Source: Phycisphaerales bacterium (GTDB lineage Bacteria > Planctomycetota > Phycisphaerae > Phycisphaerales > UBA5793). Taken from it: a stretch of DNA of 64,000 bases. Where the stretch lies: positions 62,001-126,000 of the forward strand of contig JADZAS010000015.1 in NCBI GenBank assembly GCA_020852515.1, in the 5' to 3' direction. Under the pieces are notes generated by a model. The model saw nothing but the letters and a program-made list of their open reading frames with translations, did no database searches and was not told the origin of the DNA. Positions 40,236 to 44,941 of this stretch are shown one piece after another (the stretch's first letter is position 1; each line of letters starts with the position of its first letter). The position numbers and the translations under genes were made by a program.

Positions 40236-41057
40236 TCAATCTTCGTCCGGCTCGCCGTCGGGCCGGTCAGGATCGGCGTCGAGATGCTGCCGGTCGCCGA
40301 AGATCGCCGTGCCGATCCGGACCAGGTTCGCCCCGCACTCGATGGCGATCTCAAAGTCGCTCGTCATCCCCATCGAGAGAATGTTGAACGCCTTGCCGCC
40401 GATGCCCTGCTTGCGGATCTCGCCAAAGCAGTCGGCGCACCGCTCAAACGCGCCTCGAATCGCCTCCCGGTCGTCGGTGAGCGGCGCCATCGTCATCAGC
40501 CCGCGCAGCCTCAGGTGAACCATCGAGTCGATCTGCTCGGCGAGGTGCGCCGCGGCCGGCATCGCCACGCCCGACTTCTGCCGCTCGAACGAGGCGTTCA
40601 CCTGCATGAGCACATCCACCGGCGCCTCCCGCCGCAAGGCGCACTCCTGGATCTCCTCGGCCAGCCGCAGCGTGTCCACCGTGTGGATGAGCGTCGTCAG
40701 TTCCAGCGCCTTCTTGACCTTGTTGCGCTGCAGGTGCCCGATCATGTGCCAGCGCACCTTGGGCGGCAGCGACACCGGCCGCGAGGGCGTCATCGTCTTG
40801 TGCCGCTCGAGAAACTCCTCCACCGCCGCCACCCGACGCGTCAGCTGCTGCACGCGGTTCTCGCCGAAGTCGGCGTGACCCATCTCGATGAGTTCGCGGA
40901 TCTGCTCAGGCGATGCATATTTCGTCACCGCGACGATGAGCACATCCTCCGCCCGCCGCCCGGCCGACAGCGCCGCGCTCTCGACGCGCCGCTTCACGTC
41001 CTCGTAGCGTTCCTTCAGGGTGTCCATCGGCCTGGTGCTGGTGCTGACTTCGGGCAT
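40236..41057 (-). CDS. YggS/PROSC family PLP-binding protein
   Basis: A 273-residue PLP homeostasis protein with an alanine-racemase-like TIM barrel; it buffers pyridoxal phosphate and is not a catalytic racemase. The PLP lysine is in VAVTKYASPEQI, followed by ADFGENRVQQL, WHMIGHLQRNKVKKAL and ILSMGMTSDFEIAI, all family landmarks. ATG 41057 has GGAGG 10 bases upstream; ATG 41027 is an alternative. A -10-like TACAAT lies on the minus strand at 41154-41159. The C-terminus DADPDRPDGEPDED is acidic and atypical. Confidence 0.85.
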   Translation of the reverse strand: MPEVSTSTRPMDTLKERYEDVKRRVESAALSAGRRAEDVLIVAVTKYASPEQIRELIEMGHADFGENRVQQLTRRVAAVEEFLERHKTMTPSRPVSLPPKVRWHMIGHLQRNKVKKALELTTLIHTVDTLRLAEEIQECALRREAPVDVLMQVNASFERQKSGVAMPAAAHLAEQIDSMVHLRLRGLMTMAPLTDDREAIRGAFERCADCFGEIRKQGIGGKAFNILSMGMTSDFEIAIECGANLVRIGTAIFGDRQHLDADPDRPDGEPDED

Positions 41058-41336
41058 GGCGTCCTGCCTCCGAGTTGATCCGGCGCTCCCGCCGGCCGAC
41101 GCTGATCGCGCCGCCGTTGCCGCGCAACGCTTCATCTCGCACGGCTCACCACCATTGTACCAGTCTCAACGCCCCCCGGTCCGGGCAGGCGCCGGTTCGC
41201 CCCGACGCGCACCCTCGCCGCCGCCTCGCCGCCGCGGAGCGCTGCCGCGTCCAACCCGCGCCGCGCCGCCCGCGTGCGGTCCAACCTCAAGGCTCGATGA
41301 TCACGCGCCGGCGGTCCTCGGACGCGTTGAGCAGCC

Positions 41337-41384
41337 AACTAAACGGGACAGCTAACTAAACGGGACAGGTACGTTTGTTTTCGT
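41337..41384. repeat. REP-like element left of the RAYT gene
   Basis: A 17-base tandem (AACTAAACGGGACAGCT then AACTAAACGGGACAGGT) is followed by ACGTTTGTTTTC. It faces the transposase from upstream. The same core, AAACGGGACAGGTACGTTT, appears inverted at 42118-42202 and direct at 43412-43470. Confidence 0.7.
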
Positions 41385-41427
41385 TGGGGGGCATCGCTCG
41401 CGGCCGGCGGCGCGCCTAGACATTCTC

Positions 41428-42111
41428 ATGCCCCGAACCGCTCGACCCACGCCCGGGGGGTACGTCTACCACGTGCTCAATCGTGGCGTCAATCGCATGG
41501 CCATCTTCGACGATGATGACGACTATCACGCGTTCGAGCGCATCCTCGCGCACTGCCTCGACCTGCACCCCGGTGTGCGGCTGCTCACGTACTGCCTCAT
41601 GCCCAATCACTGGCACATGCTCGTGTGGCCGCGCGGCGATGGCGACCTCTCGCCGTTCATGCAGCGGCTTACGCTCACGCACACCCGCCGCTGGCAGGAA
41701 CACCGCCACTCCCACGGCAGCGGGCACCTGTACCAGGGGCGGTTCAAGTCGTTTCCGATTCAGCGCGATGACCACTTCCTGACGGTCGCGCGATATGTCG
41801 AGCGTAACGCGCTGCGGGCGAATCTGTGCCGCCGCGCGGAAGACTGGCCGTGGTCGGGGTTGTGGATCCGGCGGTTCGGCGGCGAGGATCATCGTCGCCT
41901 GCTCTCGCCATGGCCGGTGGGCGAGCCGCGGAACTGGGTGGCGCTGGTGAACCGGCCGCAGGGCAAGGCGGAGGTGGAGGCGCTGCGGGCGAGTGTCCAG
42001 CGCGGCCGCCCGTTCGGGAGCGAGTCGTGGGTGAAGCGGACGGCGGCGGCGATGGGACTGGAGCACACGTTCCGGCCGCGCGGCCGGCCGAGGAAGGGGG
42101 CAAAGGCATGA
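41428..42111 (+). CDS. REP-associated tyrosine transposase (RAYT)
   Basis: A 227-residue Y1 transposase of the IS200-like RAYT group. It handles single-stranded DNA at palindromic REP sequences. Motifs are YHVLNRGVNRM, the HUH pair His61 and His63 in MPNHWHMLVWP, a GHLYQGRFKSFPI stretch, and catalytic Tyr123 in ARYVERNALRANL. The C-terminal extension to RGRPRKGAKA is basic. The gene is flanked by inverted REP-like elements, as expected for RAYT loci. The reading frame is intact, so it could be active. Confidence 0.87.
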   Translation: MPRTARPTPGGYVYHVLNRGVNRMAIFDDDDDYHAFERILAHCLDLHPGVRLLTYCLMPNHWHMLVWPRGDGDLSPFMQRLTLTHTRRWQEHRHSHGSGHLYQGRFKSFPIQRDDHFLTVARYVERNALRANLCRRAEDWPWSGLWIRRFGGEDHRRLLSPWPVGEPRNWVALVNRPQGKAEVEALRASVQRGRPFGSESWVKRTAAAMGLEHTFRPRGRPRKGAKA

Positions 42112-42117
42112 GCAGAC

Positions 42118-42202
42118 CTGATAAACGTACCTGTCCCGTTTTCTTGCCCTTGCCTGATAAACGTACCTGTCCCGTTTTCTTGCCTGTCCCGTTTTCTTGC
42201 CC
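42118..42202. repeat. REP-like array right of the RAYT gene
   Basis: Two identical copies of a 31-base unit (TGATAAACGTACCTGTCCCG as its main part) lie at 42118-42148 and 42154-42184, then a third partial copy, CTGTCCCGTTTTCTTGCCC, to 42202. Orientation is inverted relative to the left element. Confidence 0.7.
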
Positions 42203-42333
42203 GACTCGACATGTGCTCACCGAGAATGCATCCAAGTCCTGCCCCGTTACCTGCTCCTCCGAGGCATAACGAGCCAGAACCGTAGCCGCTATCATTCAGT
42301 TGAGCCGGAGCCAGTATTCCGCGGGAGTTTGAC

Positions 42334-42834
42334 GTGAAGCGGGAATGGATTGTTGGCGGCCTCCTGTGCGTGTTCCTTGTAGTACTTGTTGTGCCTTGGC
42401 TGAGCTGGCTGGGAGGGCTGCGTGTCCGAGTCAGGACGGAAACGCAGATTCAGCATGATCCGCAAGAATTGTGCTTCGCGATTCGCGCCAATCTCTCCGA
42501 CGATGTCATTCTTGGTATTCTCGACAAGAAGCCATATCTCCTGGATATGCCAGCATCTAATGGCTTTACGCCGCTATGCAGTGCTGTAGTCGCACAGCGC
42601 AACTCCATAGTCGCGGAACTACTGTTGCGTGGGGCCAACCCCAACGTTCACGTCGATGGAGAGACTCCGTTGATGATCGCAATTGGCCGAAGTAACAACG
42701 AGACCGTTTCCCTGCTACTCGCGCACGGCGCGGACCCGCGATTGGCGACGAGCGATGGCGAGACGCCGCTAGCCCGTGCGGAGCGCTTGCAGCGTTGGAG
42801 AATTGCTAACATCCTGCGCGAGGCTTTGAAGTAG
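42334..42834 (+). CDS. Small membrane-anchored ankyrin protein
   Basis: A 166-residue protein starting at GTG 42334 with GGGAG upstream. The N-terminal helix (IVGGLLCVFLVVLVVPWLSW) is a membrane anchor. Residues about 45-165 make three to four ankyrin repeats (NGFTPLCSAVVAQRNSIVAE, GETPLMIAIGRSNNETVSLL, GETPLARAERLQRWRIANIL). Base composition is less GC-rich than its neighbours, suggesting transfer. Such proteins bind other proteins or act as antitoxin-like modules, but no partner is obvious. It lies between RAYT-linked repeats. Confidence 0.65.
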   Translation: MKREWIVGGLLCVFLVVLVVPWLSWLGGLRVRVRTETQIQHDPQELCFAIRANLSDDVILGILDKKPYLLDMPASNGFTPLCSAVVAQRNSIVAELLLRGANPNVHVDGETPLMIAIGRSNNETVSLLLAHGADPRLATSDGETPLARAERLQRWRIANILREALK

Positions 42835-42926
42835 TGATCGCCTAACGGGATCGCGGAGCAAAGCTGGACGGATCATCAATACATAGGAGCACTGGCGTCG
42901 AGGACTCCGCTGCGCTCCTATGCCAT

Positions 42927-43343
42927 CTACCGCCGTTTGTGACAGTTCCGGCACCCGAACCTTCTCTCCTCGCGCGCGTCAGCAACATCAATCGCGTTCG
43001 CGTCCACCTGGCGGTGCGGCGCGATCGCCGGACCCGCGTTCTCAGGCATACTCAGCCCCGCGCCGCCGTCGAAGCCACTGCAATCCGTATCGCACACCAT
43101 CGCCAGTGTCGCCGTGCCGCCCTTTGCCGCCGGGTGCATTGCAGTGCCCGGCCCGCCGCAGAGGCAGGCGGTGCTGCTCAGACCGTTCGGGATGACCAGC
43201 AGCCAGGTCGAGTAGTTGGCGCACTGCCGGGCGTCGAAACTCGCCGCGCCGAAGAAGATGGGGATCGGGATGGTGCCTGCGGGCGAGGCGGTGACCCAGA
43301 GGATAAAGCGGCGCGTGGTGCCGACGACCTGGTAATGCAGCAC
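42927..43343 (-). pseudogene. Truncated secreted-protein gene
   Basis: A 138-codon open frame with strongly GC-biased third positions. It has no credible start and meets a stop just upstream (about 43380). The translation FILWVTASPAGTIPIPIFFG, FDARQCANYSTWLLVIPNG and GTATLAMVCDTDCSGFDGG suggests the C-terminal part of a beta-rich, Cys-containing exported protein. It may be the remains of a protein cut down by repeat insertion; the REP-like array at 43412-43470 lies immediately beyond the broken 5' end. Confidence 0.4.
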
Positions 43344-43411
43344 GGCGCTGGTGATCAGCGACGCCCGAGTCGACTCTGCTCAGCGGGCGAGCCACTTCAG
43401 CCAGCGGCCGT

Positions 43412-43470
43412 GGGGAGGGAAAACGGGACAGGTACGGGGAGGGAAAACGGGACAGGTACGTTTGTTTTGC
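43412..43470. repeat. REP-like array, distant copy
   Basis: Two head-to-tail copies: GGAGGGAAAACGGGACAGGT appears at about 43413 and again at about 43437, the second continuing into ACGTTTGTTTTGC. The core is the same as the elements flanking the RAYT gene 1.2 kb away. Confidence 0.7.
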
Positions 43471-43580
43471 ATCGCAGCGGCCTCGATCGCGCCGCCGCGA
43501 TGCACGATGAGTTGACTGATGACTTGGGCCCGACCCTGATCACCCGGCGTCGCGTACTGATCACAGGCGCCACAGGTCAC

Positions 43581-43630
43581 TCCATCACCCAATCACCCAA
43601 TCACCCAATCACCCATCACGCCCTCACGCC
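43581..43630. repeat. 9-bp tandem repeat (CAATCACCC)
   Basis: About four units of CAATCACCC followed by CATCACGCC and CTCACGCC run right up to the stop codon of the membrane glycosyltransferase at 43631. A similar T/G-rich complement occurs within the leader of the PilX-like gene. Confidence 0.6.
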
Positions 43631-44941
43631 CTACACCCGCCCCCACACCTGCATCGCTGCGATCGCGCTCTGGCCGATCAACTGCACGATCACCAGCGGC
43701 CGCGGCAAGACCCGCACGCACAGCACCGGCCAGAGGAAGGTGAATCCGAGCAGGTAGCGGTCGTACACATCCCCTGCCGCGAGCGCCGACAGCAGCCAGC
43801 CCAGCACGATCGTCAGCAGCGCCAGCCATGAGCTGATCTGCACGCGCTTCTCCGCATCGCGCGCGTGCTGAGCCGTGAGCGCCGCCAGCGACGCCAGGCT
43901 CATTGCGCCCAGCGCCGAGAGCGCGGCCAAAACGCCACCCAGCAGCATCGGCGCATCGGCGATCGGCCGCAGCAGCGTCGCCACCGGCCCGGCGAAGTTC
44001 AACGCCTGCGGATCGCTCGAAATCGTCGGCGGCGCGATCGCCACCAGCGCCGCCCCCGCCGCGCCACACAAGACAATCAGCCCGATCGTCTTGCGCCCGA
44101 GTTCCCGCCGGCGCAGCGCCGCGGCGACCAGCGCCAGCCCGATCGTCGGCAGCAGCGCTGCACTCAGATACGCGAGACTATCCAGCCGCAACCCGATGCT
44201 GTAGCGATGCTGAAACGATTCTCCAACCAGACCGCCCCAGCGCAGATAAAGCGGCAGCCGGCTCAGACCGGCAAAAAGTCCCGCGACAAACCACGGCCAA
44301 CTCTGCCAACGCTGCCGCTGCGCCGCCATCAGCACGATCGCCCCCGCCAGCGCCACGACGTGAATCCGATGATGCAGCAGCAGCGCAAAAAGAAGGCCGA
44401 ACATGATCGGCCCGTCGAGGCGCCTCAGCCGCTCCCGATCGCTGCTCAGCGTCGCCACGGCGATCACCGCCATCACCGCGCAGCCCAGCAGAAAGCTCGG
44501 CTCGCTCATCACCAGTTGACCCATCACCAGCGCGTAAGGCAGCGTCAGCGCCAGGCCCATCACCAGCGTGAGCCGCGCCGCTGATCTCTCGCGCGAACCC
44601 AGCAGTCCTACCAGCGTCGCCGCCCACAGCGCCGTGCACACCAGAGAGACCGCCCGCAGCACCGCGACGCTGCGGCCGAAGAACTCGCCCGCCGCCGCGT
44701 ACATCCAGAAGAACGCCGGCCCTTTCGTGTCGTCGTAGTCGAGCAGCGCGCTGCTCCACCACTCCGTGCGCCAGATCCGCTCGATGATCGGCAGCGCGTA
44801 CTTCTCATCCCATGTGATCGGCGCCGCGCCGGCGCTGGTGATGAGTCGCACGACGACCAGAAGCGTCAGGCACGCCCAGCCGCACGCCAGCCAGGCGACC
44901 CACGTGCTTCTCGTTTCGCCTTGCTGCGCTTCGCTGCTCAT
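43631..44941 (-). CDS. Membrane glycosyltransferase (GT39/ArnT-like)
   Basis: A 436-residue polytopic protein with about 11 hydrophobic helices. The first periplasmic loop has APITWDEKYALPI, with the acidic pair typical of PMT/ArnT-type glycosyltransferases, and LLDYDDTKGPAFFWMYAAAG, which also resembles this superfamily. It would transfer a sugar from a polyprenyl phosphate donor in the periplasm. The gene starts 4 bases after the UbiA-family gene that could make a prenyl-linked pentose donor, so the two look functionally linked. The exact acceptor is unknown. Confidence 0.62.
   Translation of the reverse strand: MSSEAQQGETRSTWVAWLACGWACLTLLVVVRLITSAGAAPITWDEKYALPIIERIWRTEWWSSALLDYDDTKGPAFFWMYAAAGEFFGRSVAVLRAVSLVCTALWAATLVGLLGSRERSAARLTLVMGLALTLPYALVMGQLVMSEPSFLLGCAVMAVIAVATLSSDRERLRRLDGPIMFGLLFALLLHHRIHVVALAGAIVLMAAQRQRWQSWPWFVAGLFAGLSRLPLYLRWGGLVGESFQHRYSIGLRLDSLAYLSAALLPTIGLALVAAALRRRELGRKTIGLIVLCGAAGAALVAIAPPTISSDPQALNFAGPVATLLRPIADAPMLLGGVLAALSALGAMSLASLAALTAQHARDAEKRVQISSWLALLTIVLGWLLSALAAGDVYDRYLLGFTFLWPVLCVRVLPRPLVIVQLIGQSAIAAMQVWGRV

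Follow-up and report, generated by a model that had tools for sequence, protein, structure and literature searches.

A TIRtron of a Phycisphaerales bacterium and its MITE/gene rows suggest integron-like collection of genes

Results

A TIRtron lies within a lineage-specific insertion

Between a YggS-like gene (40236-41135) and an ORF at 43631-44941, the window (the whole 64,000-nucleotide stretch of DNA analysed) carries a lineage-specific insertion of ∼2.45 kb. The same two neighbours lie only ∼80-230 bp apart in four congeners, where the site is empty (G004:C11, G001:C24, G003:C25 and G002:C171). The insertion comprises a TIRtron, that is, a gene for a Y1/HUH transposase (TIRYT) between terminal inverted repeats (TIRs), together with an ankyrin-repeat gene and a piece of a gene that belongs to a multicopy family. 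Its parts are as follows.

41184-43629, no strand: outer limits of the insertion; the flanks match G004 up to 41183 and from 43630
41337-41357, forward strand: left tip, second copy, truncated, outside the left TIR, seen in the sequence
41358-41376, forward strand: core of the left TIR (LE), exact match to AAACGGGACAGGTACGTTT; left ends are conserved in homologues
41428-42111, forward strand: TIRYT, 227-aa Y1/HUH tyrosine transposase (Pfam Y1_Tnp)
41605-41616, in the TIRYT gene: HUH motif NHWH; His61 and His63 are invariant in alignment A3
41794-41796, in the TIRYT gene: putative catalytic Tyr123 within YVERN; 90% Tyr123 in alignment A3
42123-42141, reverse strand: core of the right TIR (RE), exact match to AAACGGGACAGGTACGTTT
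42159-42177, reverse strand: second full tandem copy of the RE core, exact match to AAACGGGACAGGTACGTTT
42183-42198, reverse strand: partial third copy of the RE tip
42334-42834, forward strand: passenger gene, ankyrin-repeat protein of 166 aa with an N-terminal hydrophobic segment, GC3 0.63 (Pfam Ank)
42894-43364, reverse strand: 3' fragment of a multicopy 325-aa cysteine-rich gene family, with 75-85% matches at many congener sites
43412-43439, forward strand: truncated left tip copy AAACGGGACAGGTACGGGG; core with 3 mismatches at 43421-43439
43445-43491, forward strand: left-end remnant with full exact core (43445-43463) and leader, matching G004

The TIRYT gene is intact. Its product matches Pfam Y1_Tnp with 49.8 bits (cut-off 23) and, in a profile comparison, TnpArep (4er8) with an E value of 0.001; the match to NCBIfam REP_Tyr_transpos reached 69.7 bits, under the curated cut-off of 80. 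At the position of the Y---NP motif the protein reads YVERNA, and YVERNP in G030 and G014. The window TIRYT gave no Pfam match for a C-terminal helix-turn-helix; its conserved C-terminus carries RPRGRPRK. The GC3 of the gene, 0.86, is host-like (host ORFs, 0.81). The genome contains one further sequence resembling a Y1 transposase gene, a remote match with 29% identity and an in-frame stop (L043, G000:C30:49474-50055) that has no core nearby.

For the ankyrin-repeat passenger no DNA match was found in five relatives. The broken secreted-protein gene that the sequence-only reading had noted where the third repeat site ends is a real remnant, lies left of that site and is the 3' part of the 325-aa family, and another fragment of this family lies 8 bp from a left end in G001:C71. 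A short tandem repeat of CAATCACC occupies positions 43582-43615, past the left-end remnant but ahead of the following gene, near the right boundary of the insertion.

The terminal repeats are of the TIRYT type

The 19-bp core AAACGGGACAGGTACGTTT is present as an exact match at 41358 (forward), 42123 and 42159 (reverse) and 43445 (forward), and with 3 mismatches at 43421 (forward); dinucleotide shuffles gave 0 matches (0 expected by chance). The proposal of a shared core at all three sites is thereby borne out. At the left site (41337-41384), described as a tandem, there are indeed two copies, of which the first is only a truncated tip and the second is full, and the 2.5 inverted copies claimed on the right (42118-42202) were recovered as two full copies and a partial third. 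At 43412-43470, where two direct copies had been seen, the repeat is real but consists of a truncated copy followed by a full one; because positions 43437-43491 align at 80% with the G004 TIRtron over its left end and leader, we assign this third "array" to a truncated left end (a left-end remnant) and not to a separate array. Of the recent activity that had been deduced from the tandem duplications, what stands is signs of past activity.

Genome-wide, the core was found 17 times exactly and 38 times at ≤1 mismatch in the own genome (G000), and its reversed control 0 times. The genome-wide search that had been proposed thus places the core well beyond this locus. Among 61 genomes it was confined to this genus, in four congeners together with a close homologue of the TIRYT gene; in one further congener, G003, both the core and a close homologue are missing (best match 29% identity, partial protein). 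The outcome that was to refute the first reading, a core confined to this locus or unlinked to RAYT genes in relatives, was not observed. The TIRYT protein of G002 is 70% identical to that of the window, and its core has drifted to ...TACATTT. G002 also contains inverted pairs of the core variant AAACGGGACAGGTACATTT, about thirty in number, which resemble REPINs and whose starts are always 66 bp apart (for example L135, G002:C124:29107-29191, and L133, L136 and L137), so that within one genus the TIR has turned into a REPIN-like family in G002 in place of MITE rows. Solo TIRs also occur inside genes or away from them. One exact copy of the core was found in a 146-kb contig classed as viral (L352, IMGVR_UViG_3300001598_000034), possibly a host contig. 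A second palindromic repeat, AGGTCAGGTGGAACCTGACA / TGTCAGGTTGCACCTGACCT, stands beside arrays in G000 and G004 (L037 and L029, e.g. G000:C21:171247-171391 and C2:4700-4850; L092) and is perhaps a second REP/TIR-like family.

A TIR end reads GGGNAAGA-AAACGGGACAGGTACGTTT-AT and measures ∼29 bp; over 37 copies in the own genome, conservation drops sharply 8 nt outside the core. Tips are repeated at 9 of these 37 TIRs, compared with 0.9% in shuffles. For the hairpin folding that had been suggested as a check, the predicted structure is weak in the window version (-2.9 kcal/mol) and absent in that of G002, with -8.5 kcal/mol for G014. The GT[AG]G foot is missing from the window TIR, and the core contains CGGGACAG, which is 1 mismatch from GGGGWSAS. 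Among 70 named TIRYT homologues from Planctomycetota, Nitrospirota, several proteobacterial classes and NC10, inverted flanking repeats scored above every shuffled control in 52, with the common form AAAAGGKGWCRGG; the TIR motif fits GGGGWSAS, the published TIRYT motif, at ≤1 mismatch in 46 of the 70 and GTAG/GTGG in 4.

The locus had been read as a RAYT transposase with REP-like elements. What holds is that the Y1/HUH transposase is RAYT-like and that its cognate inverted repeats have spread over the genome; the repeats themselves are TIRs of the TIRtron/TIRYT type (PMC3733652) and not GTAG REPs. The window element is a TIRtron, a TIRYT between ∼29-bp TIRs, and not a canonical REP/RAYT pair. 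We filed it as such because a Y1/HUH protein, flanking non-GTAG inverted repeats and a GGGGWSAS-like motif were all found, and outside REP/RAYT because of the missing GTAG foot, the weak hairpin and the score under the curated cut-off. With REP/RAYT (TnpAREP), REPtrons and REPINs it shares one full transposase gene per genome, cognate repeats that are both flanking and dispersed, and the REPIN-like pairs of G002; it differs in its foot, hairpin and score, and in MITEs (see below) derived from the whole element. A classical REPtron, in which a RAYT acts on a REP substrate and further genes are uninvolved, would accommodate the RAYT similarity of the Y1/HUH protein and the inverted pairs of G002. 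The absent foot, the weak or missing hairpin, the sub-cut-off score and the prevalence of the TIRYT motif among the homologues argue against it, as do MITEs that are deleted gene copies and not free palindromes, and we judge it distinctly improbable.

MITEs alternate with single genes

When the own genome was searched with the protein, the intact gene was accompanied by paired short matches that join codons 1-35 of the transposase gene directly to codons from about 200. These pairs belong to MITEs of ∼290 bp, internally deleted TIRtron copies that retain both TIRs. Eight full MITEs are 87-95% identical and most share the deletion junction; many partial copies exist besides. They are arranged head to tail on contigs C2, C21, C15, C19 and C37; C14, C22, C25 and C32 carry parts of them, and MITEs form the ends of many contigs in this genome.

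From the right end of a copy to the left end that follows, the gap holds mostly one ORF, oriented in the direction of the element in 19 of 20 gene-bearing gaps (a hand count over G000, G001, G004 and G010; p = 4e-5, for gaps that are not independent). Most of the gap genes were overlooked by the codon-usage gene caller, being compositionally foreign, and its tally of genes pointing toward and away from the element (9 versus 10), which omits them, was set aside. For most gap genes the product is a membrane protein carrying a C-terminal zinc ribbon; other gaps hold ankyrin, BamE-like, lipoprotein-like or further genes, and a left end in G001:C59 comes after a methyltransferase gene. The zinc-ribbon gap proteins are 17-24% identical to the first of the alignment, compared with ∼90% among the MITEs. 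Gap genes have a GC3 of 0.48-0.67 (mean 0.57) versus 0.81 for host ORFs (p = 5e-7). One row gene, C21_C, is resident: its GC3 is 0.85, it scored high with the gene caller as a native gene, it has orthologues in two congeners, and a left end follows directly. The other ten zinc-ribbon gap genes had no comparably close match in the congeners searched. We rejected absent orthologues as proof of mobility, since zinc-ribbon genes free of MITEs are also divergent and the comparison set is partial.

The zinc-ribbon family consists of short membrane proteins with a C-terminal CxxCGY...CxECG; it is very large, highly divergent and often organized in tandem rows (e.g. L169, L172, L173). The members tested matched no Pfam family above cut-off. 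Matches number 137 in G000, 115 in G001, 71 in G003 and 117 in G004, and rows of such genes also occur without any TIR.

These properties bear on a serious alternative that requires no capture of genes, namely that MITEs and solo ends hop into the gaps of pre-existing runs of accessory genes that evolve fast and that homologous recombination between MITEs then mimics cassettes. The common orientation would follow from lagging-strand targeting together with co-oriented genes, and IS200/IS605-type Y1 elements do use the lagging-strand template (PMC6006769). The size of the zinc-ribbon family, also in G003 with its lack of a close TIRYT, its rows without TIRs, the divergence of its MITE-free members and the resident C21_C directly before a left end all favour such insertion between resident genes. 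Against it speak the unrelated genes (ankyrin, BamE-like, lipoprotein-like and others) in the same position, the ankyrin gene that came with the window insertion, the rows without zinc-ribbon genes in G010 described below, and the GC3 of 0.57 in gap genes, lower than the about 0.75 of the few MITE-free zinc-ribbon genes measured in the own genome. Plain MITE insertion and recombination explains part of the data, C21_C included; as an account of the rows as a whole we consider it a real possibility, if not a probable one.

One gene per repeat, a uniform direction, foreign genes and a shared locus with different genes (see below) are in outline also the features of an integron array, in which an integron integrase would act on attC sites and the MITEs would play no part. 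The repeats that separate the genes here derive, however, from the TIRYT gene itself, that is, from a transposon and not from attC sites, and none of 6 genomes encodes an IntI-type integron integrase above the family cut-off. As far as the assemblies reach, the integron reading is thus refuted, and we give it hardly any credence.

Signs of gene turnover and the same layout in relatives

At the AlkD locus, a row is present both in G000 (C21) and in G004 (C37), and its gene content differs between the two species. The host flank is duplicated in G001:C7 (203 bp, 89%) and in G001:C59 (94 bp, 84%), with one copy ahead of the insert, a gene or a TIRtron, and another behind the next left end. Similarly, in G000:C21 the start region of the MTAP gene recurs as a 138-bp, 96% identical copy that ends beside a left-end tip. 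The duplicated flanks look like the traces of events that were bounded on one side by a TIR, or a position close to one, and on the other by host sequence; recombination with the DNA of a donor strain would produce them as well.

G010, from another family of the same order, contains three MITEs of its own TIRYT that are 88-92% alike. Between them lie an ORF of ∼1.5 kb and a short ORF, unrelated genes that both point in the direction of the element; elsewhere in this genome one gene is preceded at ∼80 bp by the right end of a MITE and another is followed at ∼20 bp by a left end. Zinc-ribbon genes are absent from the G010 rows. In a Pirellulales contig, a row is made up of TIRtron, MITE, gene and left end, and the first gap holds a reversed gene. 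In a Planctomycetaceae genome (D1_Bin_8, L281), a 497-aa ORF of lower GC3 is enclosed by two TIRtrons, whose 224-aa genes are apparently identical, in a composite-transposon-like arrangement.

Discussion

We propose that capture by the transposase, combined with recombination, builds the MITE/gene rows. TIRYT would cleave single strands of DNA at the tips of the TIRs and join them again; enzymes of the HUH/Y1 superfamily act on single-stranded DNA and recognise element ends (PMC6006769). The DNA between a left and a right end would thus move as the whole element, as a deleted MITE of ∼290 bp or as a solo end, and new events may land on or beside existing tips. Some events would begin at a tip and continue into the adjacent DNA, taking a gene along, which would leave single genes enclosed by successive copies, each after a right end and before the following left end, in head-to-tail rows. 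Homologous recombination between the near-identical MITEs could then add, drop and swap genes, and the host may make use of the genes in the rows.

We regard this proposal, which draws on assemblies that are mostly MAGs, as evenly poised. Pointing toward it are the conservation of the TIR pair, the co-occurrence of core and gene in the genus, the shared MITE junction, the one-direction rows, the low GC3 of gap genes next to a host-like transposase gene, the empty site with its passenger, the difference at the AlkD locus, the flank copies beside left ends in G001:C7, G001:C59 and G000:C21, and the layout of G010 with other genes. Weighing against it are the resident C21_C, the zinc-ribbon rows without a TIR, the solo TIRs in or away from genes, the reversed gene in the first Pirellulales gap, and the duplicated flanks in so far as they can be read as recombination with donor DNA. 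Low GC3 is, moreover, common among fast-evolving accessory genes. A wider claim, that HUH transposases of the TIRYT class run an integrase-independent gene-cassette system in several bacterial phyla, with capture of single accessory genes, MITE-bounded rows in one direction at fixed chromosomal sites and single-stranded exchange from strain to strain, we consider unlikely.

To our knowledge, mobile insertion cassettes (MICs) and MITE-bounded passenger genes use DDE-type IS ends. Such cases, for example around qnrS2 (PMC5444012), resemble the rows in having a passenger between transposon ends without a transposase of its own, a likeness of architecture; the ends here are those of a Y1/HUH element and stand in multi-gene rows. 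With the TIRtron/TIRYT elements (Di Nocera et al. 2013, PMC3733652) and TnpAY1 subclass 2.1 (Quentin et al. 2018, PMC6006769), the window element shares repeats at a near-fixed distance from the gene, a GGGGWSAS-like motif, TIR families with dimers and clusters and the absence of GTAG, and its protein has 227 aa versus a median of 238. REP hairpins were not found near subclass 2.1 in the published survey (PMC6006769). Unlike the TIRtrons described there, the commonest long copy in the present genome is MITE-sized and alternates with single foreign-looking genes; the available parts of this literature (PMC3733652; PMC6006769) report TIR families, dimers and clusters and do not mention MITEs with gene rows. 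The gene-cassette-like habit thus appears to be undescribed so far, although the lack of a published report is weak evidence of novelty because the term TIRYT is scarce in the literature searched.

Taken together, a known kind of element apparently shows a new, gene-cassette-like habit, and the data suggest that this family of TIRtrons gathers genes in a manner resembling that of integrons. Genes for TIRYTs are common among MAGs of uncultured Planctomycetota, Nitrospirota and proteobacteria. If MITEs indeed collect and turn over single foreign genes, this would constitute an integron-like gain of genes driven by an HUH transposase, would account for the many contigs of the present genome that end in these repeats, and would assign a definite role, open to experiment, to a large class of orphan transposases.
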